Positions 1 through 27,080 of a DNA stretch of 64,000 nucleotides are shown piece by piece. The first letter of the stretch is position 1. Each line of letters begins with the position of its first letter. This stretch comes from Polytrichum commune. Its lineage: Eukaryota > Streptophyta > Polytrichopsida > Polytrichales > Polytrichaceae. The position numbers and the translations under genes are program-made. The stretch covers positions 2,108,001 to 2,172,000 of the forward strand of contig OX485809.1 in assembly GCA_950295325.1 (NCBI GenBank), given 5' to 3'. Under the pieces are notes generated by a model. It was not told the DNA's origin. It saw only the letters and a list, made by a program, of their open reading frames with translations, and did no database searches.

Positions 1-228
1 ATTATTGGTAGAGTTCAGGTCTTAAGAATATGAATATATTGAATATTGTGTAGTGGTCAAATTATCCAACAGGAGAGCAATTTTTGGTGACCTTCTAGGG
101 CCGCGCTGGACGTATGTGGACATGCCAACAAATATCAGACGATTTCAAATTATAGCCATTTGAATATAATTTCTTGTTGATGGTGGGAAGGATGTTTATT
201 TTGGGATATTGGATTTGTAGGTTGCAGA

Positions 229-314
229 GTTTGGGTCGAGCGACCCAAACCAGCTGCAGAGTTTGGGTCGAGCGACCCAAACCAACTGCAGAGTTTGGGT
301 CGAGCGACCCAAAC
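229..314. repeat. Array of three 22-bp palindromes, centre AG
   Basis: Three identical copies at 229-250, 261-282 and 293-314, spaced 32 bp. Each has the 10-bp arm GTTTGGGTCG, the centre AG, and the reverse complement of the arm. A looser relative (one base shorter, arm GTTTCGG) lies at 360-380. The same palindrome family occurs in all later arrays with other centre dinucleotides. Confidence 0.95.
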
Positions 315-417
315 TAGCTGCCCAGTTAATTCTTTATGGGTTTGGGGTTTTATATAGAGGTTTCGGGCGTCTACCGAAACCGTAGTGTTTCAATATTCAC
401 CCATAATGTTTTACGCT

Positions 418-447
418 GCATATACAATGCTTATGCATTGTATATGC
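418..447. repeat. Perfect 13-bp inverted repeat with 4-base loop
   Basis: Arms GCATATACAATGC (418-430) and its reverse complement (435-447) flank the loop TTAT. The same core occurs with 16-bp arms at 19123-19158, beside another 22-bp palindrome array. This suggests that both belong to the same kind of element, here in minus orientation. Confidence 0.9.
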
Positions 448-519
448 ATGAAGACCCTAAAGGCTAAGAAGCAGGTTATGTTGAGTGAGATAAGTTACCT
501 TGATGCAAGCTCTGCCAAT

Positions 520-1130
520 CTGATGCTGTTTTGCGAATAGGTTTTGCGAATCTGATTCTTAGAATCAGATTACACCTGAACACTCAGATATCACTAACAT
601 TCACTAAAATTCCACTCACTAGATTTCACAAACAACTCACACACACTTCAAAACAACAAAAACACTCTGAAATCACTACAAGGGCGCACTTTAAAACAAA
701 AACACACTCCTAACCAACAAACACACTCTGAAATCACTCAATGCTCGTATTTTTAAACAAAACAACACTCCTAAACAACAAACACACTATGAAATCATTC
801 AATGCGGATGCTTTTACACAAAAACACTACCCTACTACAATCACTCCTAAACCCTTACAAGAAGAAGAGAGAATGAGAGACGGCGAGAAGAATGAGAGAA
901 TGAGAGTATGAGAGAATGAGTGTAAGTCGAAAGGCGCCGCTTCCAGTCCTAACCAACAAACACACTCTGAAATCACTCAATGCTTGTATTTTTAAACAAA
1001 ACAACACTCCTAAACAACATACACACCCTGAAATCACTCAATGCGCATATTTCTACACAAAAACACTTCCCCAACCCATAAACACACTCTACAATCACTC
1101 CTAAACCCTTACAAGAAGAAGAGAGAATGA
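520..1130 (-). repeat. Degenerate short tandem repeats (leader-like)
   Basis: Units with the theme AACAAACACACTCTGAAATC followed by an ACTCAATGC-type segment recur at about 715, 775, 955 and 1015, interspersed with AAACAAAACAACACTCC. There is no convincing coding. Read on the minus strand this resembles the repetitive leader at 18600-18970, so it may be the 5' transcribed leader of a related transposon running leftwards out of the window. Confidence 0.6.
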
Positions 1131-1149
1131 GAGAAGAGGGTTACAAGAA

Positions 1150-1505
1150 TCAGAGAGGTGGAAAGGAATGAGAGAGAGAATGTGGGAAGCGGCGTTAGGC
1201 GGAGGCGCCGCTTCACGACAAGGTGAGAAATGAGGGAGAGAAAGGAGGGAGCTTGGCGCGGAGGGAGTTAAATAGACAAAGCGAAGGGTCGCCATGGGAC
1301 CCAATCTGGGCCATGGGAGCACCCCGAGCCCATCTACGGCTCACAAGCCTCGCGGGCAGCCACCCTGCCATGTGTCAACACCTTATTGGTGATGGTGGCT
1401 ACCCGAGGCTTCTGGGGTGCACACTTGGCGCCTAGCGGCCACCCGGCCTCCTGCCCGCCGAAGCCCGGCCCCGGCCTTCTAAGCCGCTATCTATAGCGGC
1501 TTAGC
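1150..1505 (-). promoter_or_regulatory. GC-rich promoter-like segment with GCGCCGCTT boxes
   Basis: A GC-rich island in an AT-rich surrounding. On the minus strand it contains a TATTTAA-like stretch near 1272, CT-rich runs, and AAGCGGCGCC/AAGCGGCG boxes around 1190-1215. A 24-bp palindrome (11-bp arms TAAGCCGCTAT, two-base centre) sits at 1480-1503. The boxes recur at 18415-18465 upstream of the ParB/FCP1-like locus. Assignment as a promoter is inference. Confidence 0.4.
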
Positions 1506-2033
1506 CCAAAAATCGAAAAGCAACATAGCCTAAGGTATTGCACAAAATTAACACCATCACCAACTCTGATTTTAATGGTGTTCAATTCAATGGTCCCGCG
1601 TTGGAATTGCTTACATCATAGAATGAATCCATTATTTGTTTTAGTATTTGAATATTGTAGTGATATGGAGTAAGATGAGAGCGATACAAAGTCTAAGAGG
1701 AGTATTTCATAAGTATATTGCAATCCTCAAATGCAATTGCACGGTGCAACAATTAAAATATGGTGACAATTTACATGGTCAAGGGTTTAGACTAAGTGCT
1801 CTCTATTGTAATTTCTATAACCCAAGTTCGTAGAAGATAAGGCTCTAGCCTACAATGGATATTACCCACCCAAGTAGCATTAAATTCAACATTTATATCA
1901 GTACATAGAAGTTGACATTTGAAGTACATGGGAGATACACAAAGATTACAAATTTATCTACTGCAACCCCATGGAGTTCAACATCATATGAAGCCATGTA
2001 AGCATTAAGCTTGATGTTCGATGATCCCTCCAA

Positions 2034-2068
2034 CCTAAACCCTAAACCCTAAACCCTAAACCCTAAAC
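2034..2068 (-). repeat. Interstitial telomere-like repeat (CCCTAAA)
   Basis: About five consecutive CCCTAAA units ending in CCCTAAACACC. A nearly identical tract with the same ending occurs at 16749-16776, and a short TTTAGGG tract occurs at 3628-3644. This is the Arabidopsis-type plant telomere unit. Confidence 0.9.
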
Positions 2069-2817
2069 ACCGCAAGCCTTAAATGAATGGCACATAAGGT
2101 TAAATGACAGGGCCTTAGTGCTTGTAGTTTCCAATACAAATGTATATTGTCTTGACAACATCCTAATCATATGTGCTCACGATCATGTCAACCAATATTA
2201 AGTTATAACAATGTCTGTCTAAAAAGAAGAGTATAATAACTTGATTATAGTATATATGATGTTCATACTAGATTTCAAATGGACTTCATGATAGTTTCAA
2301 ACATCCTTGAAAGAGTGAACTAAAAAGTCCTATTCGTGATGGAATTCCCATTAATGCCTTTCACATAGGTTATCCATTGCCACACTTGTATGTTGGACAA
2401 TGGATCAACATTGTGTGCACACATTACAAACGTCACATGTTCTTTTAAAGCTTTTCTCATTTTATTGTTGCAAATTGAAAGTTGGCCAATTTATTCAAAT
2501 TTGTCATGAGATCAATTCCTTGTTTTCAATGTATAAGTCCTCATGTGAAAGTCTTCATAACGACATAAACTGTAATTGTATTTGGTGGCTTCAGCTATAT
2601 GAAGTTTCATAATGTTGCCACATATATTGTCAAGATATTATTTGAAATAAACCATAATATTTGAGTCCAAGTAGAGTAATATCCTGGAAGTACATAATTT
2701 AATTTGTATGCAATGCATCAATGTGAAGTTGTGGAGGATGGGTTCTCAAAATCAGTTATCAAATATCATTTTCTTCCCAATGGTGCATGTCATAGGCACA
2801 TAAAATGAGACAGTCTA

Positions 2818-3367
2818 CCCCCATCAACAATAATTTTAATTTTTTTGACAAATATTGTTATAGGATATTGGAAGATATATTGGAGATCTTTCTTTATCAT
2901 TTTTTTTCCATATCCTTACTAACACTATATTCAAACATGTAACTTCAACATATTACCATAGATAATATTGAGTGTTTGAGTTTACAATGTTTGATGTTAC
3001 TTACTTTCATAGTGGTATTAGTATTGAGTAGATGCGTTCGTATTTAGTGTATCAAACTCTAAATATGTTATGAACTAAACTCCTAAACCCAACTACACAA
3101 AATATGATATCTAGTGTTTGATACCCTATATACAAGCGCATGCACTAAATATCAATAACCATATGAAAGTCAGTGACATAAAATGTAAACTCTCACAATA
3201 AGTATCATCTATGGTAATATGTGGAATTTACATGTTTGCAATTAGTGTTAGGAAGGATGTGAAAAGAAAAAATATACGTGAAAGTAGAAGGTAAGCGACA
3301 CATTTATGTGTAACAGTAATTGTCAAAGATTTAAAAATTAATGTTGAGCATAGTAGGGTGGTAACAA
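2818..3367. mobile_element. Imperfect fold-back (hairpin) element
   Basis: The left half (about 2818-3080) pairs with the reverse complement of the right half (about 3090-3367). Matching landmarks are CATATTACCATAGAT at 2949-2963 against ATCTATGGTAATATG at 3208-3222, and CCTTACTAACACTA near 2914 against TAGTGTTAGGAAGG near 3244. There is no coding capacity. It is most likely a MITE or fold-back element. Intervening bases 1506-2033 and 2069-2817 hold nothing I recognise. Confidence 0.7.
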
Positions 3368-3627
3368 CACTAAATATAATGAAACACACACCCCATATTT
3401 TGTGTAGTTATTTCATCACGGAATTAGCAATGTCATTTGATGGTTGGCGCCACGAAGAGCCACGAAGGCCACACATTAGTAAACTTGAAGTGAACTTCAA
3501 GATGGATTCAAATATCATTAACAGATTGAACTAAAAAGCGACATTGGTAGTTAGTATCCCTTTAACAACGTCCACATACGTTCCTCATTGGCACACTTGC
3601 ATGCGAGATAATAGAGCAATGTTCTAG

Positions 3628-3644
3628 GGTTTAGGGTTTAGGGG
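3628..3644 (+). repeat. Short TTTAGGG tract at the edge of the giant inverted repeat
   Basis: CTAGGGTTTAGGGTTTAGG lies immediately left of the point (3647) where the inverted-repeat arm begins. Confidence 0.75.
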
Positions 3645-4057
3645 AGACAAATAAATAATTTTATTCATCACGACAATGGCCTCAAGCCTTGGAAACCCTT
3701 TCATAATTGCAGCCTCCAAATGGCCCAAACCCCACCTAAATAGGTTTACACTTGAAAGCATTGAATGGAGTTAAAATATTTGTTAAAATATACCGTCATG
3801 ACACTTGAGAAAATTAATGTGGCCGCCACCCTTCCTCCCAACGGCGTATGTCATATCCACACAAGACAAAAAAAAATAAAAAAATATCATAGACTAAGTC
3901 ATATGACGGCTGGAGTATCAGAGGGGCATTGAAAGATGCGCATTTTCTACTATAAAAAAAAAAAAGGAATTATGTCAGGAGGTTTGAAATAACCTCTGCA
4001 GGAGAACAAGGCGGGAAAGGCATCCAATGAGGAAGTCCGAGAAAGGGAGGTGGATAG

Positions 4058-4063
4058 TATAAA
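4058..4063 (+). promoter_or_regulatory. TATA box of transposon copy 1
   Basis: TATAAA in the context GGATAGTATAAAGGG, followed by a GCACCCCCCAAAAGT segment. The equivalent box is preserved in the other copy (minus strand, 15851-15856). It lies upstream of the leader and palindrome array. Confidence 0.6.
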
Positions 4064-4339
4064 GGGACGCACCCCCCAAAAGTCTGTCCTTTTTTGCTCT
4101 TCTCCCACTCTTGAATTCGTAGAGAGAACTCTTAGTCGGAGCTATACTTCAAGGTTCGTGCATGCTGCCGTTCATTAGCACTTATCCACAGCATGCAAGT
4201 TCATGAGCACCTACCCACAGCATGGAAGCCCACCGTGAACTTTGCAATGAGCTTAAAAACAACACATTTCGGATTATCCGCCGCATTATCCGCCGCATTA
4301 TCCGCCGCATTATGAGGGTTTTAGCGTGACTCTTATCAG

Positions 4340-5403
4340 GTTTGGGTCGGTCGACCCAAACCCCTCCGCTACTGTGGGCGGGTTTCAGCATGACCCTGAT
4401 CAGGTTTGGGTCGGTCGACCCAAACCCCTCCACTAGTGTGGGCGGGTTTCAGCCTGATCCAAACCTATCCCCTCGTGAGGCAGGTACTAGAGTGGACAAG
4501 GAGCCCATCCTGGCCCTCAAGGTTTGGGTCGGTCGACCCAAACCTATACCCTCCTGAGGCAGGTACTATGGTGGACACGGAGTCCATCTTGCCCCTCAAG
4601 GTTTGGGTCGGTCGACCGAAACCTTTACTCTCATGAGGCAGGTACTAGGGTGGACACGGAGTCCATCCTGCCCCTCAAAGTTTGGGTCGGTCGACCCAAA
4701 CCTATCCCCTCGTGAGGCAGGGTCTAGAGTGGACAAGGAGCCCATCCTGGCCCTCAAGGTTTGGGTCGGTCGACCCAAACCTATCCCCTCGTGAGGCAGG
4801 GTCTAGAGTGGACAAGGAGCCCATCCAGGCCCTCAAGGTTTGGGTCGGTCGACCCAAACCTATATGCTCATGAGGCAGGTACTAGGGTGGACACGGAGTC
4901 CATCCTGCCCCTCAAGGTTTGGGTCGGTCGACCCAAACCTATACCCTCATGAGGCAGGTACTAGGGTGGACACGGAGTCCATCTTACCCCTCAAGGTTTG
5001 GGTCGGTCGACCCAAACCTATACCCTCATGAGGCAGGTACTAGGGTGGACACGGAGTCCATCTTACCCCTCAAGGTTTGGGTCGGTCGATCCAAACCCAC
5101 CCCCACGTGAGGCATGTACTAGGGTGGACTTTGAGCCCTTCCTGCCCTATAAGGTTTGGGTCGGTCGACCCAAACCTTATCCCATAGTGGGCATGTACTA
5201 GGTTTGACACATCCCATTGCCCTTACATAATTTGGGACGGTCTACCCAATCCATCCCCACTGTGTGGGTGCTCTCTGTTATGAGCCTGAACCCATCTTGC
5301 GAAAAGGTTTGGATCGGTCAACCCAATTTATCCCCACTGTTTGGATGGAGTCTGGATGACCATGATCCCATCGTGCCACAAGGTTTGGGTAGGTCGACCC
5401 AAA
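4340..5403. repeat. Array of about 14 22-bp palindromes in 79-bp tandem units, centre GT
   Basis: Palindromes with centre GT start at 4340, 4404, 4522, 4601, 4680, 4759, 4838, 4917, 4996, 5075 and 5154, with decayed copies near 5230, 5307 and 5382. From 4522 to 5075 the spacing is exactly 79 bp, so this core is a tandem repeat whose unit is palindrome plus a 57-bp linker containing TGAGGCAGGTACTAGGGTGG. The array lies between the promoter and the coding start, i.e. in the 5' leader or a 5' intron. Spurious ORFs through it arise because the palindrome has no stop in any frame. Confidence 0.95.
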
Positions 5404-5595
5404 CCCAAACCCACCGTGTGGATGGGCTCTAAATGATAGTGTGTCCACTGGCCAACCCAAACCTTTACAAAGCCAATGGCATAGCATTCATATGAACATG
5501 TATGAACACTGTGTATTTGCAATATTGTTTATATAAGATGGTTTTTGTATTATTCGATTGGAACCTACAATTTTGTGGTTTCTTGATAAGGTTCA

Positions 5596-8500
5596 ATGTT
5601 CATGTGTGTAGGCAGAATGAATGGGTTTAGTGAAAGAGGGGATTGGTCATCTGAAGATATGGCCACTTGGCCATCTGCATCTGAGGATGAGATAGACATT
5701 GTCGGGGAGGATACTTTGGCTGACAGTGCAGATGAAGATCATTTGGATTTACCTTCGCCTTCCGTACCGCAATGTCCCATTGCTGAATGTACGGGACTCT
5801 CAAGGGCTTCATGGATGAATTTGGAGGTGGTACTTCTTAATGACAGTGGAGTTGTTGTGGCGGAGGGGATTTGTCGCAACACCCATCCACAAGATTGCAT
5901 TGATGAAAACCCGCTTGGCACCGAGGACGTTGGGGTTGTCATATTGGAGTCGCTCGTTCATTCCGAGGTGGATCCCACTCACAGGTTCTCCCTCCGGAGG
6001 TGGCCATTGAGGAATGTCACGATTGATGGTGTTTCCTTGTGTGAACATGAGCAACGACACTTGCAAATCCAAAAAGAGCAGCAATCAAACATGCGGCCAC
6101 GCAAGGGTCAAAGAAAGTACGATACATTGGCACGTCCTGCTCCGTCTGCAACTGATTGTAAACGTCAAAGGTTGCTCGGGGAGGAGTCCATTAGAGAAGT
6201 TGCCACAAAGGATTGTTGTGTGCATCGTTGTTGCCAATTGTTTCCCCGGGATAAATTGTTGGCCATCCGCGAAGAAATGTGGCTTGGTGATTTCCGTCTA
6301 AGATCCACCAAAAAACTTGATGTGCATAGGGCGATACATGTGAATGGGGCGGGTCGCAAGGTCATCACCATTGAGAGCATAGACGTGTGTTGCAAGGCAT
6401 GGTACACCATTCATGGTGTGTCGAAAGCGGACTTTTATAGACAAGCTGCTTATGCCAAGGAAGGCCGCCGGTCCCGTCACCATGGGAACGTGGGTTTAAA
6501 GAAACCTAGGGAAGCAACAAGGCAAGCAACGGCCACTCTAGCAACCATAATTGTCCCACTTGCCGATGCAATGCCGCACAAAACACGCACACTCACAACT
6601 GGTGAAAAGGTTGTGGAGAAAGTTCTTCCCACAGGCACAAAATGGAAAGACATATTGTTGGATGTAAATGCAGTTGGGGAGAAGATTGGGTTGGAGCCAA
6701 TTTCATCGTCAAAATTGAGTACAATCAAGAAAGCAAACTTCAGCGAATACATTACAAAAAGACAAGGGGACAAATTTGCAAGGTGCTCTAATTGCGAGAA
6801 GTTGAAGCGCCTTCGGGATGCACACACGATGGGTACCGAGTCGTTTGCGGTGCATCAATTGAACTATTTCAAGCACGTAAACATGCAAGAGGCACACCGT
6901 AATGATTACTACACAAATAGAGCGTTGTCCATCTCCAGGCCCTTGGAAGTTCTTACGGTCATCCATGACAAAATGGACCATGCCAAGACAGCCTCCCCAT
7001 GTTTTGCAAAACGAATCAAGGCCACGGATGGGTTTTTTAAGTTGCCTGTATCGATTACAGGTGATCTTCGAAACAATGTTGACATATCCTAAATATTGTT
7101 GTATTTTATTATGTGATGTACTTGAGAACATTGATTCACTCAAAACGATTTAGACATACATAGATACTAATCACTTTGGGTTGGCATTGTAGGAATGATT
7201 GCACATGGACACGGTGATGTCAAGTTTGCCCATTATGCTCTTGATTTGTATCCAGCAGATTCAAACCACACGATAGGGTCATTTGCAAGGCTTTTGCGTG
7301 ATTTAGAGAAACTGCCAGCCTATTCTTCAGGATTGTTATTTGAAAATACGGGTTCAACACCTTTATATGAAGCAGTGATGGATGGAAAAGATGTATGCTT
7401 GCATTCGTTGCCCGAACCACCCAGTGAACCCGTGATAGCCAAGAAGTTGCCCCCCACTTTGCGTGTCCAATTGGACAATAAAAGTAGATATGTATTTGCA
7501 TATTGGTCGTTGTTGGTTGCGAAAGGCATTTTCAAGGAGGTTTTTGTGTCCTTCCTATTGGTAGGCCACACGCACGACGATATTGATGCATCTTTTGGAC
7601 GGTGGAGCATGAAGTTGCGGGAGGAGGATTTTCCTACAATCCCGTTATTGATGAAGTCGTACATGGATTTGGAGAACGTTCCCGTCATCCCCCATATGAT
7701 TGAGGAGGTGCCAGACTTCAAGGCATTTATAGAACCTTATATTCGAAGTGGAGCTCATCGATTGATTGGCCATACGAAGGCACAACAATTCCGGTTCTAC
7801 ATGCGTGATGATGGTGTCCCGGCCATGCAATACAAGTTGTTGTGCACGACACAAGACTGGAGCCCGCCAGAGGGTCTCCTTGTGTGGTGCGTGGATGCGG
7901 ATGGGAAGACCATGTTACCGGATGGAAAGCCTAGGCCTTGCAAGCCAATAGCCATGAAGAATTTGAAGGATATTTTGAAAGGTATATCAGGCTTCATTCA
8001 ATATTGGGAGAGTTTGAAGATAGCGGATGTTGGCGGATCATGTTGGCATCGTTATGGGAGTTGGATACATTATTGGACACGTGTTCGTGCGGCCTTGGCA
8101 GACCTCCACCAAGATAGCCCTCATACTTTGAGGCACGGATTTTGGCCACAAACTCGTATCGATGTACAAGCTTCGGAGGCTAGTCTTTTGGGAAATGGAG
8201 AGGTTCGTGAGGAGTTTGATATGGATGACCATTACGTTGGGCCTGCTAGTCAACGTCCCCCACCATCTTTCCGCATTGCAGTGGATTGTCATGAAGGTTA
8301 TATGCTCATTTTGCGTCCTGGAGATGAGACATATGCAAAGCCAGTGTGGGTGGCAAGAGCTTTGTCCAATCCAAATTTTGTATCTTCCAGCCCTCATTTT
8401 CGACAAATACAAGTAGAGTACTACCGACCGACAGCACGGAATGAAGATGTTGTTCGGCATTATACAGGCTGGGATACAAACCAACACTTTCGGTGGAAGG

Positions 8501-8664
8501 TGGATTCTGAGCACGGTCCATCTTGGGTAGATACAGATTCCATATTCATAGCATGGAAACCACGGAAAAATCATAGTGGATCAGTGTCCATCCCTCAAAA
8601 ATACATAACTTTTGCAAAAGACAACCTTGCTCGGATCGCAGAAGAAGCAACCCACGTTGAATGA
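5596..8664 (+). CDS. Transposase-like protein, DUF7869-type, two exons (copy 1)
   Basis: Exon 1 is 5596-7060 and exon 2 is 7193-8664. The 132-bp intron has CAG/GTGATC, a TACTAAT branch-like site and a TTGTAG acceptor. Joined length is 978 residues. The start may instead be the ATG at 5617, because TGTGTGTAG just before it looks like a splice acceptor. Visible features are an acidic N-terminus, Cys-rich segments (CCVHRCC near residue 207; CSNCEKLKRLRD near 397), VIHDKMDHAKT near 455-465, QLDNKSR near 582 and GHTHDDIDASFGRWS near 613-627. The HTHDDID block and the preceding Asp motifs recall DUF7869/RNase-H-like transposase proteins of plants (family recalled, not searched). Compared with copy 2 it lacks five residues (CAKDN or equivalent) in the LDNCAKDNKS motif, so activity is doubtful although the frame is open. 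Confidence 0.75.
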
Positions 8665-9121
8665 GAAGTTGGTAGGATTGTGTTAGCATGATTATAGTGT
8701 AAACAGTAATTCGACGAATATATATTACTCATATGTGTGCTCCTCAAACTTGGGGCAAAGTTTGGGTAGAACTTGCGAATGCTATATTGTTTGGGGTTGG
8801 ATGAATATCCATTTACTATATTTCAATACAATTGTGAAGTTCATTTTTTTATTAAATTTGGGACTAAATTTTCCATTGAAGAAATATGCATTTATTGCAT
8901 GCACTTTGTATGTTGCAATGTCTATATTTTATTGACCATGCTAATAATAGAAATCATTTTATATGTTTCTTGGGTGAAACTAGTTTGGAGTGCTCTACCC
9001 AAAGTGTTTTTGTTGATGAGGTTGGTGTTGAGTGCTCTACCATATGTGCTTATGTCCACACATAATAGATTTGGGATATTAGAACATATAATATATTTGA
9101 GATTGTTCACAATATAGTTTC

Positions 9122-9438
9122 TTGTTGTCCTTTTCATTCCTTGATCCTAAGGTGAATAATTAAGACAGCACTCCTGAATGTCCTTTAAGGAATCAAAAGG
9201 ATATCTTAGATGACCCTATTCCTTCTAAATTAACTTTGTCAGTGTACTCGATATGGAGTATGAAATGTAGGTATGATCCAAAAGAGGCTTCACAATACAA
9301 ATCTAAGCATACCAAGCATGTGAAGTTATCCAAAAAAGTCCGTTTTCCGTTAGACGGCCAAAAGTAGTACCCTAACCGTGAATGGCCCCTTCTATATGTG
9401 TTTAGAACTTGTGTATTTCAACTTGTATGTATAGTTCC
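9122..9438. other. Spacer between the inverted-repeat arms
   Basis: A 317-bp single-copy sequence between the two arms. I see no recognisable coding, splice or repeat signal in it. It could be host DNA between two insertions or the loop of one composite element. Confidence 0.6.
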
Positions 9439-10626
9439 GAAACTATATTGTGAACAATCTCAAATATATTATATGTTCTAATATCCCAAATCTATTATGT
9501 GTGGACATAAGCACATATGGTAGAGCACTCAACACCAACTTCATCAACAAAAACACTTTGGGTAGAGCACTCCAAACTAGTTTCACCCAAAAAACATATA
9601 AAATGATTTCTATTATTAGCATGGTCAATAAAATATAGACATTGCAACATACAAAGTGCATGCAATAAATGCATTTTTCTTCAATGGAAAATTTAGTCCC
9701 AAACTTAATAAACAAAATGAACTTCACAACTGTATTGAAATATAGTAAATGGATATTCATCCAACCCCAAACAATATAGCATTCGCAAGCTCTACCCAAA
9801 CTTTGCCCCAAGTTTGAGGAGCACACATATGAGTAATATATATTCGTCGAATTACTGTTTACACTATAATCATGCTAACACAATCCTACCAACTTCTCAT
9901 TCAACGTGGGTTGCTTCTTCTGCGATCCGAGCAAGGTTGTCTTTTGCAAAAGTTATGTATTTTTTAGGGATGGACACTGATCCACTATGATTTTTCCGTG
10001 GTTTCCATGCTATGAATATGGAATCTGTATCTACCCAAGATGGACCGTGCTCAGAATCCACCTTCCACCGAAAGTGTTGGTTTGTATCCCAGCCTGTATA
10101 ATGCCGAACAACATCTTCATTCCGTGCTGTCGGTCGGTAGTACTCTACTTATATTTGTCGAAAATGAGGGCTGGAAGTCACAAAATTTGGATTGGACAAA
10201 GCTCTTGCCACCCACACTGGCTTTGCATATGTCTCATTTCCAGGACGCAAAATGAGCATATAACCTTCATGACAATCCACTGTCATGCGGAAAGATGGTG
10301 GCGGACGACTACTAGCAGGCCCCACGTAATGGTCGTCCACATCAAACTCCTCTCGAACCTCTCCATTTCCCAAAAGACTAGCCTCCGAAGCTTGTACATT
10401 GACACGTGTTTGTGGCCAAAACCCATGCCTTAAAGTAAGGGGTGTATCTTGATGAAGGTTTGCCAAAGCGCCACGAACACGTGTCCAATATTGTATCCAA
10501 CTTTCGTAACGAAGCCAACACGATCCACCAACATCCGCTACCCTCAAACTCTCCCAATATTGTATGAAGCCTGATATGCCTTTACAAATGTCCTCCAAAT
10601 TCTTCATGGGTATTGGTTTGCAAGGC

Positions 10627-15850: not shown

Positions 15851-15856
15851 TTTATA
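15851..15856 (-). promoter_or_regulatory. TATA box of transposon copy 2
   Basis: TATAAA on the minus strand in GGATAGTATAAAGGG, equivalent to 4058-4063 in copy 1. Confidence 0.6.
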
Positions 15857-17010: not shown

Positions 17011-17573
17011 ATGTACTTAAAACTTGAGCATGTTCGCATTTTCAAATAAGGATCGTGCATTTCAAAACCCTTGCAAAATGCAGTTGGGGAAGGTATTCAT
17101 TTATTAGGCTCCACACTCAATTATTCTAAATTGTTCCACATGTTAGGGGGTGTGGGTAATCCTTTTTTTTTCATTCAATATCGTGTGAATTGTTGGCATC
17201 ATTGGTAAAGACTAAATGTGAATGGTTACATCGTTAAATATAACGCAATTATATGGTTTTTCTAACATGCTCAAACAAAAGAGAAACCAATGCCTTCAAT
17301 GATTTTGGAAAATTTAGGGTATGGTGTCATGTAAGTAGGGGATAAGTATTAGTTTAGCATAAAGTTTTGTTGTAAGAATGCGCTGGCTATATAAATGGTT
17401 AGTTTTGTAGAATAACACATTTTATGTAGCACCTTAGGGTACTCCATAGTTCTTTTGAAAAAACTAATAAGGGTTTAGAGCAGGGTCCAAAAGAACCTAA
17501 ACCCTAAAATTCGCTAATTTGAGATTTTCTCTTCTCTTAAATTAATATATGGACCACAACAACATAGTGTAAT

Positions 17574-17755
17574 GTTTGGGTCGTCCTACCTAAACCATCT
17601 TCATATGAGATCTTAATTGCGTTCTTGATATGAACACCCGCTTCAAAGTATTTGCATCTTACAACATTCTCCAATGTACGTGCGATTTTATCCATGTTCT
17701 TATATTTGTAACTTTCTCAAAATGCCGAAAAAATCCCAAATTAACGAATATACCG
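17574..17755. repeat. Left member of a direct-repeat pair (about 185 bp)
   Basis: It starts with a degenerate 22-bp palindrome (17574-17595) and continues with CACCCGCTTCAAAGTATTTG, TTACAACATTCTCCAATGT and TTCTCAAAATGCC. The same series in the same orientation is found at 27059-27235. Together they flank the ParB/FCP1-like locus. Confidence 0.75.
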
Positions 17756-18297
17756 ATTAAAACAAATGCAGCCTACAAAATTAGTGACTTAGCCTATAAA
17801 ATTTTGAAAGTGTAGGACAAAGAGCCTATGGACAATTTAAAAACATAGGATATCAACCTATGTGATAAAAAACATTTAGGAAATTTTGCCTAAATTTTTT
17901 TTAAAAGAGAGGATTTTAGCCATTCATCCTTCTTCAAATTGGGAAATTAGTTGGCCTAAGTACATATCTTTAGGCTATATCTTGCAGGAAGAGTAGAGGT
18001 TGAATGAGAACATGGTGAGAACTTTCACCCTTAAACTCATTTGAATTTTAGCAACCTTTCATAACTTATAATCAACTCTTTAAAAAAGACTTGGTTAATC
18101 CTTGGCCTTCAAACGTGGTGAAAGGCTTAGCCAGGTTCAATTCCTGCCAAGGATCCCACTTAGTACTCAAATTTTGATTTTAAAACCTACAACATTAAAA
18201 GATATGAAGGATTTTAACCTACCCCTAAACCTACCGCTAAGGGTTTAGAGTCAAGCGTTAGGATTTAGGTTTTAGGGTTCCATGTAACCCTGTTTCC

Positions 18298-18580
18298 GTG
18301 GGTGCCCTAATCCTGTGGGCACCCTATTCATGCGGTTGGGGGCCAATGCCCGAGGTAAACAAAACCCCAACCGTCGCATTTTTTATTTCTTTTTCTCTCT
18401 CTCTCTCCGCGCCTCGCTTGGAAGCGCCGCCTCTCCTGAAGCGCCGCTTTCGCAAAGCGCCGCGGCAAATCAGGCTTGGTGTAGGCAACCCTTCATTCTC
18501 CCGCGTTCATTGCTTTCTTCTGCATCTTCTTTTCCCTCCTTTCTTTTGCTCTTCAATAGAATAGCCCTTGTGCAATCTTA
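18298..18580 (+). promoter_or_regulatory. GC-rich promoter-like segment upstream of the ParB/FCP1-like locus
   Basis: CT-rich runs (TCTCTCTCTCTCTCCGCGCC) are followed by repeated GAAGCGCCGC/AAGCGCCGC boxes at 18421-18465. The same box type occurs, inverted, at 1190-1215. It is followed by a repetitive leader and a palindrome array, matching the layout at the left end of the window. A promoter role is inferred only from position and composition. Confidence 0.4.
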
Positions 18581-18619
18581 GAAGTTAGGAAGAGTTTTGA
18601 AAGAAACATAAACATACGG

Positions 18620-18975
18620 AGGAAGGTTTTAGAGCGTGAGAGTGAAGGAAGTTAGCAAAAGAGTGTTGAAGAGTATTGGAAAGTGCTGAAGGAAGTTAGT
18701 AGAACATTGTGTAGTAGATAAAGCTTCTGTTTGGGAGGTCCAGGTGTTTGAACTGGAAGTTTTAGGAGTGCTTGTGAAATTCAAGAGTTCTTTAAGAGTA
18801 TCAAGAGTTGTTTGAGAGTTTTCGAAGTCGTTTGAGAGATTTAGTAGTTTTGTGAGGGATTCAGGAGTCGGTTTAGACATTTCGAAGTCTTTTGAGAGGT
18901 TTAGTAGTTGTGTGTGAGATTCAGGAGTTGGTTGAGAGATCCAAGAGCTATTTGAGAGAGTTGATACTTGTTTGA
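18620..18975 (+). repeat. Short degenerate repeats in the leader (AGAGTTGTTTGAGAG theme)
   Basis: Many variants of GAGTTGTTTGAGAGTTT, TTTAGTAGTTTTGTGAG and GATTCAGGAGTCGG follow one another. No long plus-strand ORF covers the stretch. It is a candidate 5' untranslated leader of the locus that starts coding at 19750. Confidence 0.55.
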
Positions 18976-19122
18976 AAGTTTCTCATTGAACTTTCTCACA
19001 GTTTGTTTGATATTGAGAATTATTGGAAGAACAACCTACTCTACTCCAAATTGTCTGCACAACATCTTTGAAAGGTATTGTGTTTTATTTTAACCAATAT
19101 GTGTTTGTAGATTCACGGTGTT

Positions 19123-19158
19123 GTAGCATACACAATGCATAAGCATTGTATATGCTAC
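19123..19158. repeat. 16-bp inverted repeat with 4-base loop
   Basis: Left arm GTAGCATACACAATGC, loop ATAA, right arm the reverse complement with one mismatch. It shares its core with 418-447 and lies just before the palindrome array at 19193. Confidence 0.9.
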
Positions 19159-19192
19159 ATGTCAAGTTTAAAAAATATATTAAAATAATACT

Positions 19193-19463
19193 GTTTGGGG
19201 AGACGACCCAAACACAGCATATTGTTTGGGTCGACCGACCCAAACACAGCCTCTTGTTTGGGTCGACCGACCCAAACACAGCCTATTGTTTGGGTCGACC
19301 GCCCCAAACACAGCCTCTTGTTTGGGTCGACCGACCCAAACATAGCCCCAAACACAGCCCCTTGTTTGGGTCGCTCGACCCAAACACAAAACAAAGCATC
19401 ATGTTTGGGCCGAACGACCCAAATATAACACAAAGCATCATGTTTGGGTCGAACGACCCAAAC
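19193..19463. repeat. Array of eight 22-bp palindromes, centres AC, CT and AA
   Basis: Copies start at 19193 (decayed, 21 bp), 19224, 19256, 19288, 19320 (AC), 19364 (CT), 19403 (AA, decayed) and 19442 (AA). A further copy with a damaged right arm is at 19702-19723, 27 bp before the first coding exon. The linker theme is ACAGCCTCTT. The array sits in the 5' untranslated part or first intron of the downstream gene. Confidence 0.95.
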
Positions 19464-21083
19464 TAAGTCTTCTAATTATAAACTCATAAAGAAATCCATG
19501 ATTTTTGCATCAATATAAAATTCACATCAACCCAAAATAATAATCAATGAATGTATCAAGGAAAAGTATCAAGGAATCCTGCATGTCACAAACAATATAA
19601 AATGCAAATCCACCCAATAATCACAACATTCTTATTATCATTACAAATGATGCTGAAATATATAAATACACAATCCACCTAAACCTATTCATGTCGTAGA
19701 TGTTTGGGTCGAACGACTGAAACTAACTTTGCACATTATTTTCTTACAGATGGCTCCAAAGAAAAGACCCGGCGAAAGGTGGTTCATGCCTGCGCCGGAC
19801 ATGTTGTGGCAGGAGCACGAAACCCCGCAGGATGACTCCTATTCACTTGGGACGGGCTTGTCCTCGCTTGGTCTATTCAAGTAGTCAAAGCCTCAACATA
19901 CAAAATGATTTTTGTTGTCAAGGTGGGAACCGTGGAGAAACACACCTGGGCGACTCTTACGGGATGGGAGGTCGCATCGGTACAGTCTCTTGGAGACTAT
20001 ACCAACGTCATCCTCGAGAACTCGGCTGTGCAAAACGCGCATATGTTCATGCACCAGTTCTCCGAGCCTTTCGACGCACTCTATGCAAGAGAGTCCTGTG
20101 TCGAACCGGAAGTTATCAAGCCGGAGACAATATTTATCGATGGGAGTACATCGAATACCAAGGTCTCAAGCCGGTTCACAAAACTATAACATGCAATAAC
20201 CGTGCTGAACAGGGGCCTGCAAAGCAAAACCAAATCACAGCAACCTGTGAGGCGGAAAGCTCCCACAGAGGAAGGAGCAGGGTCGTCAAGACCTCAATCG
20301 GTAAGGATGCCGCTACCAGTACCGGCTGACTCGCGTAGGACCACTCCCTCCCAAACACCTACGAATAGTGAGACCCCTACACCTTCTGGGAGCCGTCAAA
20401 CAACTCCATCCAAGAGGGCGAGAGAGTCATCTGTGATGACTGACGAGCCAGTCTCACCGGAGTTGCGCATGCCGAAGCCCAGCGAAGAGGTGGATGCAGG
20501 GGAGCTGCAGAAAATCGTGAACAATTTCACGACGAAATGCTCCCACTGTTTTTTCATGGGCAGGGATTTCAAGTTCGACGTGAACATCAGCCAGTGCCAT
20601 CTAGCGCCACCGGAGAAGTGTGTCCGGGCAAAGGAGGACGCCTACATTGACTGGATAATCGCGCAGATCGTTTGCGAGCAGTTTAAATACGACAGGCAAA
20701 CGATTGTAGTGATGCCACAGGGTCTCAAGAAAATGCCTACACCTGAAATGTGGCCAACAATTCAGAAGGGCGATTTTTGGCTGATAGACGGCCAACACAG
20801 CATGGAGGCATCCAAGAAAATCCAACTCATGAATGAGTGGGACAATCCCAACAATCAGAAGGAAAAGCTGAAGGTTTGGAAGGCACTGGTGGTGTGGTCT
20901 GATGACGAGACCAAGCTCAGCGACATCTCCCGGTACTTCAATATGGGAAACAAGAAGAGGGCCTACCAAGCTTCCTGGATAAGGAATATCATGGCCTCGC
21001 GGGAGGTGTGGGAGTTCTATGGTAGGCCTCCCAAGGAGAGGGAGAATGTGAAGGACAAGAATCCCAAGTGGGAGGTGAGTATT

Positions 21084-21346
21084 GTTTGGGTCGACCGACC
21101 CAAACTCCTGGTGCAGCCATGTTTATTTAGTTTGGGTCGATCGACCCAAACAACTGTTGCAGTCTTGTGTTTTTTTTAGTTTGGGTCGATCGACCCAAAC
21201 AACTGTTGCAGTCTTGTGTTTTTTTTAGTTTGGGTCGATCGACCCAAACAACTGTTGCAGTCTTGTGTTTTTTTAGTTTGGGTCGATCGACCCAAACAAC
21301 TGTTGCAATCTTGTGTTTTTTTTAGTTTGGGTCGATCGACCCAAAC
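21084..21346. repeat. Intronic array of six 22-bp palindromes, centres AC then AT
   Basis: Starts at 21084 (AC), then 21130, 21179, 21228, 21276 and 21325 (all AT, which makes them perfect palindromes). The spacing is about 49 bp with linker AACTGTTGCAGTCTTGTG. The array lies wholly inside the intron 21075-21436, beginning 10 bp after the donor. Confidence 0.95.
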
Positions 21347-22796
21347 TCTTGTTGTAGATGTTGGTCATGATATGGTTTGGAAATCACATGTACTTATCTA
21401 ACACGCATTCAAATGTTATGTTTTGTTCACGTGCAGAATTTCAAATACCAGATGATCAACAAATTCTCCTCCATTGATAATTCGAGCCACAAGCAGAAGA
21501 AATACAGCGACCTGAAGGGGGAGATTTACTTGATTACAGCATCGGACTCAGTTTGGAGGAAGTGGAAAACCGTGTTTGAAAAACACGAGACGGGGGATTT
21601 GATCGACCCCGACACTGGCGCTTTCTTCAGCCTGGCCTCGCGCTTCAAGCAGATGAAGCCTCTTGTGAGAGAGTTATTTAGAACTCTTCAAGGGCTGTCA
21701 GAGACGGAGGTGGAGAAGGCGGCATCGCACATCCTGCACGTGGCACCCACGGCCAAGAGGTGTTGGGTGCACCCGAAGATTGTCTTCGTAAAGCCCAAAT
21801 CCTTCATTCCTTCATGCTACACCATGAAGGAATGGACGGAGAACAGGAAAAAGAAGACGACTATCGTGCAGGAGCTGCATAAATTGGTGCCAGAGAGGAA
21901 TATTGTCGTGGACGGCGAGGTTCATGATGCTAACTGGAGAGCATTCAAAGATGAATATAAGTTCACCAGTGCCTCCATGGCGGCTCTAATAAGGAAAGCG
22001 GGGGATGACTTCTTGCGGGCCAAGATGGTGAAGGGTGGGAAGAACCGGGCGCTTCCGGATCACACAGCGCGTACGTTCTCGAACTTCATCAAGGAGAAGA
22101 AGATTGTCCAGTTTGAAGGGGACGCTTACTTCAACCTTGTCACCTTCGAGCCTTTGAAAATTCAGGGCTGGCCAGGTCAAGACGCCAGAATGGCGATAAT
22201 GACGAAAGCAAGGGACCGCTTTCCTTTTGGGATGATTGATTTTAGAAATATTCCCGGAAGCTCATTTGAGGGCACAATGAGCACCCCCTTCTACGACCCC
22301 TTCTTAACTAAGTTCGTCGATTATGCAAGCCCTAAGTTCAGGGAGGTAGATATCTGGCTTTAGATAGTCGAGGATAGGAGGGCGGAGCAGGTGTACGAGC
22401 TTGTCCGGAAACTGCAGCTGGAGTATGCAGTGTCCAAGTCTCACTACATCGCCGTACCGGCGGAGGGGGCTTACACGATGTTGAAGGACAAGAAGACCAA
22501 GTTCGTCAACGTCTTGTGTTTGTACTTCGTGTACAAAGCGGAGTTGCTGAAGGTGCCGAACCACCCTATATCCCGGATGGACAAACTCTTCCAAGTTCCA
22601 GAAGGGTTGGGTGCCAACAAGTGCCTCTACGACGAGGCTAAATACGCGAACTATCCTGCAGATGAGCTGCGGATGGAATTTTACATGAGAATGATGAGGA
22701 CGCTGACGAGGAGAGGGGACTGCATCTTCAACGTCTTCGGAGGCTCAAAACCTGTCTATGCTGCTATGGTAAGTGACTTTCTATAGCTCGTAAGCA

Positions 22797-22926
22797 GTTT
22801 GGGTCGATCGACCCAAACTAGGCTCTTTGCAGGTTTGGGTCGACCGGCCCAAACTAGGCTCTTTGCAGGTTTGGGTCGACCGACCCAAACTAGGCTCTTT
22901 GCAGGTTTGGGTCGACCGGCCCAAAC
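22797..22926. repeat. Intronic array of four 22-bp palindromes, centres AT and AC
   Basis: Starts at 22797 (AT), 22833, 22869 and 22905, spaced 36 bp. Two carry CGGCCC in the right arm. All lie in the intron 22769-23000, soon after the donor, as in the preceding intron. Confidence 0.95.
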
Positions 22927-24118
22927 TACACATTTCACTTAGTCTTGTTTATGTGACTGCCTCGACAAATTCTAATTTCCCTATAACTTGGATTGTGTAG
23001 ATGTCGGGGTTGAATATATACTCCTACATAGAGGATGGCGATCTGCCATTTTATAGGGTGCAAAAATCGCTGGCGAAGAAGATGGACATCCTCGATTGGA
23101 TCCCGGGTAGCTACGTCGACGAGGTTGTTCAGGGTGGCGAAAACCCTCTTGATAGGGTGAGGCGCATCAACCTGGAGGAAATGGCCATGAGGGCCACGAC
23201 CCAAGTTCCCGAACCTCTGGTCGGGTTGCATCCGGGCAATCCGTCCCGCACAGAAGGTGGCGAGGTTGAGGAGGAGGAGGAGGAAGAAGAGGAACACGAG
23301 GAGGCGGAGAAGGAAGGCGACGTCGAGGAAGGGGCAACGGGCTTCACGCAAGAATCCGAAGCCCCTCAACGGAAGAAGGCGATGCGGGCGGCAACCCCGC
23401 AGAGTAAGCTCGTGCCCGTCCTGACTGTGGACGATGCACGGGACATGTACTCCAGGGACGCCACCGCCACGTTCAGGGAGAGGAGGAAGTTGAAGGGGAA
23501 GAAGCTGTATGGCGACTACTCCGTGGAGGAGACCATTGCCATAAGCAGCGAGGACGACGATGATATTGAGCTCGCCAAACGGCTCAGATCAGATCCCCCC
23601 TCCCCGACAGCGTTCGCTGGCATGGTTAGGGTGAAGCCCGAGGTCCTGACGGTGGAGGAGGCAAACGAGAAGATGAGGAGGGACGAGGAGCAACGCGTCC
23701 ATCTGCAGAAGGCTGCCGCGGAAGAACCCTCAATGCGGAACGAGGTCGCACAGCTGAGGGCTCTCCTGTTGGAGCAGGAGCGACAGAGGGCGATGGCCCA
23801 ACCTCCGTCCCACGCCGACTTGATATCACAAGTGATACAAGGAATGTGGGCGCAAGGTTTGGTGGTGGCTCCCTCCAGCTCCTTCCCGCACTTGCCCCCC
23901 GGCTTCCCTCCGCAGAGCATCCCTCAGCAGCCTGTGCCGCAATCGTCTTTCAACTTCCAGCACTTGATGCGGCCCCACCAAGTTCCGTACGCGCCGGTCC
24001 AGCAAGTGAATGACCCCAACATCTGGCGCGTCTCTAGAGCCTCCTCCCCTTTGGGCCCTCCACCACTTCGGCCCCCGATAGTCATGGCGCCCCCTCACCA
24101 ATCGGACGACCCCAGGAT

Positions 24119-24209
24119 GTTTGGGTCGACCGACCCAAACCCACGATCCACTGTAGTGTCCGAAGGGCCCTCTCCAGATGCAGGACAGTTTGGGTCGGGC
24201 GACCCAAAC
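24119..24209 (+). repeat. Two 22-bp palindromes inside the coding exon
   Basis: Copies at 24119-24140 (centre AC) and 24188-24209 (centre GG) lie in frame within the third exon, where they encode FGSTDPNP and FGSGDPNP. They keep the frame open because the palindrome contains no stop codon in any of the six frames. Confidence 0.95.
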
Positions 24210-24509
24210 CCCGTTGCAGCGCAGTCCTCCCTTGACCAACATGGGTGTCAACTAGACACGGCCATGCTAGATGTTGAAGGCCTGCAAGGGCCTGGTGATA
24301 CCTCTACTCCTAACCAAATCGATGAACGCATGCATGATGCACATGCGGAGATTGGTTTAGGACAAGGGCCTGATGCCGATCGTTTGCAGGAGAAGGTTCC
24401 TGACGTCGTCGGAGAAGGCGGTGGCGAGAGAGGCGGGGCAGCGGGGACGGTGGAGGCTTCCACATCGTCGAGACATGACCAGGGTGAGGTAATACACTGA
24501 GCCCTCCCA

Positions 24510-24531
24510 GTTTGGGTCGACCGACCCAAAC
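24510..24531. repeat. Single 22-bp palindrome just after the exon
   Basis: A perfect copy with centre AC. It lies 10 bp after a TGA stop, or 18 bp into an intron if the donor GAG/GTAATA at 24491 is used. The position shortly after a donor matches the two preceding introns. Confidence 0.95.
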
Positions 24532-24979
24532 TTCTTGGGTCATTGTCTTGTTGGCCTGGTCGTGTCCCCCTTGCTAGGAGGAAATGCACACCCCCTGCCC
24601 CCCCCCCCCGCTCTACACTTGCTCCCCCTCCCCCCAACGTGCCCCCCCGCGATCCCCTTCGTCTCGTCTGCATTCGACTACGCTCGACCTTGGCGGCGCG
24701 CAACCAATTTTGTGGATGTAGAATTAGGATAGTGTGTTTTCCCTCGTTCACCGCGCCCCCCCCCCCCATCAAATTGTACATAGAGATTTGTAACAATAAA
24801 ATTATTATTTTTGGCGCCCATATGTTTGCATCCGTGTCCCAATGTATGTTGTTCCCCTTGTATGTTTTTTTTGCCACCAATGGTCCAATTCTTCTTGTGT
24901 TTGCACAAAATTTCCGTTCTGCTTGAGATGGACATAGCATAACATAGTCCTCGCCGCCTTCTCTCGCTCGTCGCCGCAG

Positions 24980-25792
24980 GGATCGGAGCATAGCGTCGCA
25001 GCTCCCCACCGATCCTCTCCGAGGAGTGTGGAGGACAGCGCGGTGGTCCCCCCGATTTTGCCCTCGCCACCTTCGCCTCCCAAGACCCGGTTCCTGGTGC
25101 TAGACCTCAACGGGGTCCTTGTCCAGTGCGTGCATTGTCCGAGGGTCCCCACGGTGCCTTTTTGCAAGCCCGAGGACGCCAACTACGATGGACCCCCCGC
25201 GTACATCAAAAGCAAGCTAGTGTACCTCCGCCCGTCCCTTCGGCGCTTCCTACAGGTCGCCCTATCCAAATGGTGGGTGATCATTTGGAGCTCCATGAAG
25301 TCCGAGAATACCCAGGCCGTCGTGGAGTTCATCTTCAAGGGACTCCAACCCCCGTGCTTGGTCCTAGGACAGGATTCTTGTAAAACATTGTACACCCCCG
25401 AGGGCAGGGTTGTGAAGAAGCCCAACAACCCCGCCGTAAACCAATTTCTTAAGGTCTTGAAGCCATTCGTATGGGACCAGCGTCCGACCATGGTCGGCTG
25501 TCCCTACGACGTTCGCCCCACCCGTGACAACACGTTGATGGTGGACGACATCGCTTCCAAAAACATTTTGAACCCGACCTCCAACTTCATAGTTTGCCCC
25601 ACGTGGACGGTCGAGAAGGTCCGAGACCGCTTTTTGTTAGACCTACTTAAGTACATTCAAACGCTCGTGGGGAGCGGACTACCCGTGCCCCGGTTCCTTA
25701 GTTGTAATCCGATAGGCGAAAGATACATGGATCCGAAGGACTATATGTACAGAGAGTTGTACGCTCACGCGAAATATAATAAATTCATTTGA
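24980..25792 (+). CDS. FCP1/NIF-like HAD phosphatase domain exon
   Basis: The open exon begins after the acceptor CTCGTCGCCGCAG at 24979 and ends at a TGA at 25790-25792 (about 270 codons). No convincing ATG precedes the domain in frame, which supports splicing from an upstream exon. Phase 0 fits a donor at 24491. Visible HAD/FCP1 features are FLVLDLNGVLVQ (25090-25125; the family's DxDG is DLNG here), VYLRPSLRRFL, VIIWSSMKSEN (the motif II Ser/Thr region), a Lys in KKPNNP and MVDDIASKNILNPTSN (motif III, Asp-Asp). FCP1-type domains dephosphorylate proteins such as the RNA polymerase II C-terminal tail. Asn in place of the second motif I Asp raises doubt about catalysis. Being inside a repeat-flanked locus, it is probably a transposon passenger or the C-terminal half of the ParB-like protein. 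Confidence 0.65.
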   Translation, partial: GSEHSVAAPHRSSPRSVEDSAVVPPILPSPPSPPKTRFLVLDLNGVLVQCVHCPRVPTVPFCKPEDANYDGPPAYIKSKLVYLRPSLRRFLQVALSKWWVIIWSSMKSENTQAVVEFIFKGLQPPCLVLGQDSCKTLYTPEGRVVKKPNNPAVNQFLKVLKPFVWDQRPTMVGCPYDVRPTRDNTLMVDDIASKNILNPTSNFIVCPTWTVEKVRDRFLLDLLKYIQTLVGSGLPVPRFLSCNPIGERYMDPKDYMYRELYAHAKYNKFI

Positions 25793-25911
25793 GATACTAC
25801 ATGGTGTGCCATTGTGTGTGATATATTATGCCTCAATTGTATATCGATTTTCACATGCTCTCCCCTCCCCCCCTCCCCTTGGGTTTTGTTTTGTTTCCTT
25901 TTTTGCGCCAG

Positions 25912-26699
25912 CGTTTGGAGCCCTCGATTGAGATCGTCAGCGAATCAAACTTGGGGAGCTTCTTCTACGAGACCGTCTACGATGCCGCGTCCACCATCGA
26001 CTACTCCAAGGAGCCTCTTGACGCCGGCGTCGTCGATAGCCCCCCACCCAAGCAAATCTTCCGGCGATCTGCGTCCCCGTCACCGTTCAAAGGCATAAAT
26101 CGCAAATGCGTCCGGACATCCCCCTCTCGGCCCGGCGGCAGTAGTACACCTCAACGGCGGCTGCGGATGGACGCTCGGCCTACGAAGAGTGGAACCCTTC
26201 CTATTCCTTTGCGGGATGCCTTGCCCCTCCTCGCCAACTCCGACGGGAACGCCCCCAGTGACAAGGTGAACCCCCCCCCCAAAAAAAAACATGGTTATCC
26301 ACGCATTACAATCATTTTGCACTTAAAAAATGAACGTGTGACACGTTTGGGTCTTCCTCCCTAAACTAACACATGTGTTCTTGCATTGACGCGTTGCAGG
26401 TTGCTCCCACCCGTAAACCTATGCGGTCTAGTGCGTCCATCGAGTTGGAGCGTTTCTACTCCATGACCAGAAATGCAAGACAGTCCACTTCATCGTATTC
26501 GAATTCTTCGTCGTATAATTCGGGCGGCCGACGGAATCCAAAATGTGTTATTGATGGCGTTCACCCCAAGAATGGCTATAGTCGCGGGGCGGAGATTTTC
26601 AGGAATGTTGAAGCAATGCGAGCAAAAGAAGCCGCAGCAAAAGAAAAAGAGGCAAAAGAAAAAAAAAGCAAAAGAAAAAGAGGTAGTCTCCGAGGCTAG
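25912..26699 (+). CDS. C-terminal Ser/Lys-rich exons downstream of the FCP1-like domain
   Basis: Two exons, 25912-26265 and 26400-26699, are joined in phase 0 (AAG/GTGAAC donor, GCGTTGCAG acceptor). The first follows a strong polypyrimidine tract and CGCCAG acceptor, so it must be spliced to something upstream. The FCP1-like exon is the obvious partner, but a TGA at 25790 intervenes and no clear phase-0 donor precedes it. The product starts RLEPSIEIVSESNLG, is Ser/Pro-rich and basic, and ends in a Lys/Glu run (AKEKEAKEKKSKRKRG). The intron holds a degenerate 22-bp palindrome (26345-26366). I recognise no domain. Confidence 0.5.
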
Positions 26700-26869
26700 A
26701 TAGGCCATAGTAGGCGTAGGGTTTTGGGCCATAGGCAAGAACATTTTGGGTCGCACTATCCAATGGATGTGTGGTGTTAGCATGCTATGCATTTTACATG
26801 CCACACTTTGTATGTTTTTTTTTGCAATAATATAAGTGTCACATGATTTCCCCTTCCATATGGTCTAAG

Positions 26870-27080
26870 GTTTGGATTGCCCTACCTAAACCATCACAAA
26901 TATGAGTTTGGAATATTTTGTATGTTATATTATATTGGTTCACATATTTCCCCTTCAATATGATCTATGGTTTGGATTGCCCTACCTAAACCATATTCAT
27001 ACAAGTTTTTGTGCGATAATATGAATGTTTTAAGATTTCCCCTTCAACTTGGCCTAAGGTTTGGATTGCCCACCCTAAAC
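26870..27080. repeat. Three degenerate 22-bp palindromes in about 95-bp units
   Basis: GTTTGGATTGCCCTACCTAA-type copies start at 26870, 26970 and 27059, each preceded by TTTCCCCTTC. They are a decayed form of the palindrome and grade into the direct repeat at 27059-27235. Confidence 0.8.

Follow-up and report, generated by a model that had tools for sequence, protein, structure and literature searches.

VANDAL/VANC is an anti-silencing system of MULE transposons in Arabidopsis (PMC5735166; PMC10398659). As its description has it, VANC motifs are found both ahead of the transposase gene and within introns of the accessory genes, and their binding removes silencing; the VANC6 motif occurs also in an unrelated element, the motifs being rare in other elements (PMC5735166). 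In Ectocarpus, the 21.5-kb transposon Sola1-1_Ec32 has an accessory gene that joins ParB and DNA methyltransferase parts and for which self-binding and self-modification were proposed, and similar proteins are reported from green and red algae (PMC12477816). That account, in its portion on the element, names no target sequence (PMC12477816). Here we describe a large transposon of Polytrichum commune, two copies of which (elements A and B) lie in a 64,000-nucleotide stretch of contig OX485809.1 (positions 2,108,001 to 2,172,000; hereafter the window), and a 22-bp palindrome that recurs within it and within a second transposon family. We propose, with about an even chance of being correct, that selection maintains the palindrome, in noncoding sequence and at a few sites in exons of large DNA transposons, as a sequence-specific site for an accessory protein that the element itself encodes, in a system of self-recognition or anti-silencing.

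As far as the published descriptions go, this locus resembles VANDAL/VANC in having a short transposon-specific motif, fast-changing tandem repeats, and sites both upstream of the transposase and in accessory introns. The VANC motifs, however, are 8–9 bases long, are unlike for VANC21 and VANC6, and are bound by VANC. Here, in contrast, a 22-bp palindrome is nearly fixed across diverged lineages and is found also in coding sequence; its carriers are a DUF7869 element and a MULE-like one, and the accessory protein has a methyltransferase fold. With Sola1-1_Ec32, in the part described, our element shares its giant size, an accessory gene opposite the transposase strand, the methyltransferase fold and a possible ParB-like part, whereas it differs in that the fold lacks the DPPY motif, in that there is a clear candidate target and in that the host is a land plant. 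Sola1 transposons have 4-bp target-site duplications (TSDs), as does the window element. The system most likely belongs within the recently noted ParB-methyltransferase class of transposon accessory genes.

Results

The palindrome consists of two 10-bp arms around two central bases (GTTTGGGTCG-NN-CGACCCAAAC). An earlier note on this DNA had counted about 60 copies in seven clusters; this is borne out by 57 palindromes at no more than three mismatches, all within 229–24531, compared with none in 100 dinucleotide shuffles of the window. Allowing up to six mismatches brings the number to 67 (44 exact, 10 with one mismatch, 3 with two, 5 with four, 4 with five and 1 with six) and recovers the decayed copies that had been named at 17574 (two mismatches), 26345, 26870 and 26970 (four each) and 27059 (five). 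No copy at four or fewer mismatches occurs in the host stretch 27300–64000, as had been claimed for the two host genes further right, nor in one 10-kb control or the element flanks examined. Across the assembly (407.8 Mb, 64 contigs) there are 9,231 exact palindromes, against none for a reversed-pattern control, and 13,847 at up to three mismatches, against 5; two thirds of these near copies are letter-perfect. The earlier observation is correct, and larger in extent than stated. The 10-2-10 layout also stands, with the amendment that the central two bases are constrained, not free: pyrimidine–purine steps occupy the center of only 38 of the 9,231 exact copies, all of them CA or TG (TA and CG are never seen), and of none of the 214 copies examined individually. 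No Rfam family was found in the window at gathering score.

The arms have been kept while their surroundings were lost. Element B and the copy at C1:610757 (on contig 1, C1) are old relatives: over 432 nt of accessory exon 2, they differ at 27 of 50 four-fold sites. Matching their palindromes by position in coding sequence and the 3′ untranslated region (UTR) shows no difference in the arms, with 60 of 60 sites identical, versus 536 of 679 (78.9%) for the non-arm sites of the same alignment, which is one of nucleotides, with comparison copy A frameshifted before its palindromes. Between these two copies, linker identity is 0.518 in the upstream array (shuffled, 0.451), 0.622 in the 5′ UTR intron (0.452), 0.470 in intron 1 (0.516) and 0.600 in intron 2 (0.433). 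Linkers are conserved, as expected, between close copies (0.932, 0.710, 0.977 and 1.000 for element B versus C1:2112817). Arm identity in the multi-copy clusters, about 0.99, is biased upward since copies were chosen by their similarity to the consensus; the position-matched 60 of 60 is therefore the result to rely on. Diverged copies thus agree with the statement that linkers and periods vary while the motif is kept.

The same note had also concluded that simple tandem duplication was not at work. In fact, clusters do expand through tandem duplication, the motif and its linker being copied as one unit, with periods of 32, 36, 39–49, 64 + 56 (120) and 77–79 bp among the window clusters; what holds is that the motif is kept afterwards. 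Copy number, period and linkers differ between element copies at matching sites. In the array upstream of the DUF7869 unit, for example, the period is 77–79 in element A, 64 + 56 in element B, 78 at C1:610757 and mostly 64 at C1:1174918. We rejected a mobile 22-bp insertion, the "seeding" of the earlier note, since no target duplication was seen around single copies and the clusters are tandem units of motif and linker.

Homologs of the accessory exons among proteins predicted from public genomes and metagenomes (47, 30 and 49 hits) extend this picture at the amino-acid level, some of them reading past the exon into the intron. At the exon before intron 1, 14 of the 17 homologs that read at least 13 residues past its end show the translated palindrome within one residue (P0026, a false anchor match, is left out of the 17), and a reversed-pattern control gave none among 77 homolog proteins. 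The translated palindrome of intron 2 is present in 13 of 17 homologs of 63–86% identity, a count without the reversed control. Overall, the motif follows the matching exons across homologs of 63–89% identity. In homolog P0101 (69% identity), the two introns each carry a different form that remains symmetric (FGPxGPN, MGRPAQT), which is consistent with both arms having changed together, and P0099 reads FGRPTET; the corresponding exact DNA variants number 0 and 0 in this assembly.

A separate transposon family on contig 1 (C1:2150001-2170000) carries the same palindrome, in an intron of its transposase gene and before an accessory gene of its own. To judge by its sequence, this family is MULE-like. 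Its gene matches the PF04434 SWIM domain at 13 bits, below the cut-off of 19.6, with no MULE domain matched; its 61-bp terminal inverted repeats (TIRs) are 87% identical, and a 10-bp TSD, AGTTGGCATG, was recognized by eye in one copy, MULE TSDs being about 9–11 bp long. Within the palindrome array of one MULE-like copy is inserted a 14.7-kb stretch (C1:463009-477725) with four palindromes of its own and with transposase-like and methyltransferase-like exons, apparently a diverged MULE-like relative; the element around the group at C1:475306-475402 was identified solely from sequence resembling termini, a transposase match of 39% and methyltransferase-exon matches of 26–29%. All eight palindrome groups for which DNA was fetched lie inside DUF7869-type or MULE-like elements; these are eight of the 11 groups among the places listed, those near 3.44, 3.49 and 3.96 Mb of C1 being left out. 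The motif is thus carried by transposons, as the earlier note had it, and among the places listed its copies are clustered, not scattered over the assembly. The note's several transposon types are not those of the window, however: all seven window clusters fall in two copies of one large element, and the second family lies elsewhere. At C1:2131149-2135719, an old MULE-like relative (exon pieces mostly ~47–69% identical) adjoins an intact palindrome-bearing element; it has no palindrome within four mismatches.

The window transposon, with TIR AACACTATATTCG, is about 17–19 kb long, and its two copies are inverted and head to head (Table 1). Three complete copies on contig 1 measure 18.1, 18.6 and 17.0 kb, have TIRs reading AACACTATATTCGTTAAATTGAGACTTT, and are flanked by 4-bp TSDs in all three cases (AAGT, CCTT and ATAA). 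Element B has lost its left TIR at the junction with element A; at this junction (9121–9434) the transposase-side inverted repeat is lost in both copies. The DUF7869 unit, on the minus strand of element B, is transcribed toward the left end and comprises an open reading frame (ORF) of 498–505 aa and the DUF7869 ORF; the opposite-strand unit, on the plus strand, comprises an accessory gene of several exons and a phosphatase of the NIF type. When the genome was searched with the DUF7869 ORF, there were 1,450 candidates, of which 144 were scored, on C1 to C7; since all 144 are at least 95% identical and their frames are mostly open, at least that part of the family is recent. No literature match was found to the name DUF7869, and the matches listed for the palindrome arm strings were unrelated by title.

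Palindromes occupy five positions in this element. The first lies upstream of the DUF7869 unit. The other four belong to the accessory gene: its presumed 5′ UTR intron, intron 1, intron 2, and its end, where two copies fall in the coding tail and a third in the 3′ UTR. All five are present in four copies, and the truncated element A has the first four. A relic with six mismatches lies at 19192, beside the 5′ UTR-intron cluster. The three subterminal relatives near the right TIR (26870, 26970 and 27059) are about 90–100 bp apart and are present in other copies; they are possible transposase-binding repeats. Between the DUF7869 and accessory units, the stretch 17570–17752 resembles the right end (27055–27238) and has the same orientation, which is how the element would look had the accessory unit joined it outside an earlier right terminus. 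Telomere repeats of the plant type (CCCTAAA), short and interstitial, occur at 2034–2068 and 16748–16775. To the right, 34500–64000 is a host gene region with long introns, whose gene pieces we take, by their look, to encode a TamB/TIC236-type protein.

Table 1. Elements, genes and palindrome clusters in the window
Feature	Position	Strand	Basis or remark
Element A, truncated second copy	1..9121	-	extends past the left end of the window to ~C7:2104010
Cluster, presumed 5′ UTR-intron region of element A accessory gene	229..314	-	3 exact copies, period 32
Array upstream of element A DUF7869 unit	4340..5404	+	14 copies at <=4 mismatches, period 77-79
Element A DUF7869 unit, first ORF (498 aa)	5596..7092	+	no Pfam match
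Element A DUF7869 ORF	7195..8664	+	PF25273, E 6.1e-34
Element B, near-complete transposon	9434..27244	+	collinear with complete copies C1:1174918-1193533 and C1:2112817-2129768
Element B DUF7869 ORF	11812..12609	-	PF25273, E 4.9e-41
Element B DUF7869 unit, first ORF (505 aa)	12696..14213	-	no Pfam match
Array upstream of element B DUF7869 unit	14384..15545	-	20 copies, 120-bp (64+56) period
Degenerate palindrome within the right-end-like stretch	17574..17595	+	mismatch scan
Cluster, presumed accessory 5′ UTR intron, element B	19224..19723	+	8 copies; intron inferred from splice-like sites
Accessory exon with ParB/DGQHR-like signature (WLIDGQHSMEA)	20445..21075	+	47 homologs
Cluster, accessory intron 1, element B	21084..21346	+	6 exact copies, period 49
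Accessory exon 2	21437..22768	+	stop at 22361 breaks the frame in this copy
Cluster, accessory intron 2, element B	22797..22926	+	4 copies, period 36
Accessory last exon (499 aa)	23001..24500	+	no Pfam match
Two palindromes in coding sequence	24119..24209	+	translated FGSTDPN and FGSGDPN
Palindrome in 3′ UTR	24510..24531	+	motif scan
NIF/FCP1-like phosphatase ORF	25028..25792	+	PF03031, E 1.5e-12
Three subterminal degenerate relatives	26870..27080	+	26870 and 26970 read GTTTGGATTGCCCTACCTAAAC; 27059 is a further changed form
Element B right TIR	27217..27244	+	AACACTATATTCGTTAAATTGAGACTTT read inwards; comparison of complete copies

Accessory exon 2 has a DNA amino-methyltransferase fold in its C-terminal half, as analyzed in comparison copy A (L048:153-1484), where this exon is intact. 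The catalytic [DNS]PP[YFW] (DPPY) motif is missing in all 34 aligned members, some of them partial, and IDFRNIPG probably occupies its presumed place. DNA modification by this protein is therefore unlikely. In the exon before intron 1, the string WLIDGQHSMEA is one that we take for a ParB/DGQHR-like signature. VANC proteins belong to the DUF1985 family; no domain of this kind turned up when the accessory exons, one at a time, and their homologs were scanned against Pfam. Searches of the accessory exons against sequences of solved structures and NCBIfam gave nothing credible. We also discarded a viral origin: in IMG/VR there was no exact motif, and of 65 stretches that matched a pattern in the search with the exon 2 profile, none was confirmed as a relative.

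Discussion

Before our work, the palindrome had been described as a protein-binding or recombination site. Protein binding is the best reading, whereas recombination is unsupported: no recombinase domain was found among the ORFs scanned, and the intact arrays lie away from the element ends. The direct basis for our proposal is that the arms are kept as their surroundings diverge, that they are spread over the transposon genes, and that two kinds of transposon carry them. The accessory protein is the natural candidate binder because, in both kinds, the motif occurs together with a gene that gives a methyltransferase signal. In the mechanism that we envisage, a homodimeric DNA-binding protein from the transposon's own accessory gene would bind the arrays cooperatively, the dimer reading two 10-bp half-sites around a stiff center. 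The bound protein would hold the genes of the element in a switchable state, and would most likely do so by opposing the host's DNA methylation or silencing, in the manner of VANC. Arrays would expand and contract through tandem duplication, and linkers would drift and become homogenized within a cluster, while a change in the arms would be possible only with a matching change in the protein.

A more specific form of this proposal is possible, though we hold it tentatively and think it more doubtful than the general one. A prokaryote-type ParB-methyltransferase may have been captured and have lost catalysis; it would load on parS-like arrays, spread, and hold off silencing, and unrelated transposons would have converged on the protein–site pair or exchanged it. 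If a ParB-type self-label were indeed shared in this way, the arrays would amount to a common password among genomic parasites.

Several observations weigh against the recognition-site proposal or its parts. The link between motif and protein consists of their co-occurrence and the methyltransferase signal in both families; that the site leads to this protein, and its binding to relief from silencing, is what we infer. Foldseek alone returned no match to exon 2 below E 0.001. A ParB-like domain is not established, since Pfam is silent and a PHROGs profile reached E 0.22, which is not significant, and the model of the ParB-like exon of the MULE partner is poor (pLDDT 52). Homology between the accessory proteins of the two families, and hence a shared protein, is not demonstrated at the sequence level: tblastn at E 1 with the MULE-family exons gave no hit in the window element or in comparison copies A and B, and a profile comparison of the two ParB-like exons gave no match. 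The most diverged homologs (26–40% identity) are without the motif in their readable tails, and it appears in the translation of none of the 30 homologs of the MULE partner. Linker similarity above the shuffles remains in two of the four clusters, the other two being at or near shuffle level. Finally, descent from a few ancestral centers may partly account for the rarity of certain central steps.

An alternative is that the palindrome acts in RNA, folding in pre-mRNA as a hairpin (9-bp stem, 4-base loop) that serves splicing, retention or small-RNA production. Indeed, the clusters lie mostly in introns or in the upstream or 5′ UTR parts of both gene units, and deduplicated arm changes in transcript sense comprise 20 C>T and 8 G>A. 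Transitions in the arms preserve pairing in 21 cases and break it in 12, versus 36 and 58 in the linkers (Fisher p 0.015), a contrast that also weighs, weakly, against our own proposal; the excess of pairing-preserving changes taken by itself does not reach significance (p 0.16). The forms read in P0099 and P0101 look like symmetric changes of both arms, yet the sole double change among the 214 copies is not complementary, and exact compensated forms of two changes number 0 and 0 genome-wide, double changes being rare anyway. A loop also leaves the near-exclusion of pyrimidine–purine steps in the central bases unexplained, and we consider a hairpin role unlikely. About as unlikely is recognition by a host regulator, whether a protein by which the plant would label the elements for silencing or a host activator that the elements would turn to their own use. 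One host protein could account for a single motif in different elements; against this, the host stretch, the 10-kb control and the element flanks examined hold no copies, and selection on the element should remove a host silencing mark, yet all 60 matched sites were kept.

Two further explanations fit worse. In En/Spm (CACTA) elements, TnpA binds short repeated subterminal motifs, and our palindromes might likewise be transposase-binding sites for synapsis or excision, as the three degenerate relatives within 400 bp of the right TIR would suggest. The window element is like CACTA in combining short repeated sites with an element protein (predicted here) and in termini that read AA-CACTA...TAGTG-TT; it differs in that the TSD of its complete copies is 4 bp, not 3, and in that its arrays are internal. 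No TNP2-type CACTA transposase domain was found among the ORFs scanned; in the transposase unit, PF25273 (DUF7869) alone was matched. The intact arrays are kilobases away from the element ends, it is the subterminal copies that are degenerate, and DUF7869 and MULE-like elements share the motif with different transposase genes and ends; we therefore judge such a role distinctly improbable. That the palindrome is a passive tandem satellite, hitchhiking in transposons and driven to expand or convert by its palindromic form, is in our view very unlikely. Its local units are clearly tandem duplicates, but drift would erase arms like their surroundings, whereas the aligned single copies are intact where their neighbors are not, and the motif still follows matching exons in the homologs.

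Overall, the recognition-site proposal gives the ParB-methyltransferase class of accessory genes a candidate target site with thousands of copies and strong evidence of selective retention, and it makes a prediction that can be assayed. It also points to more than one origin of VANC-like self-recognition in plants, in this case with a different protein, and to a recognition code that different transposon superfamilies can have in common.

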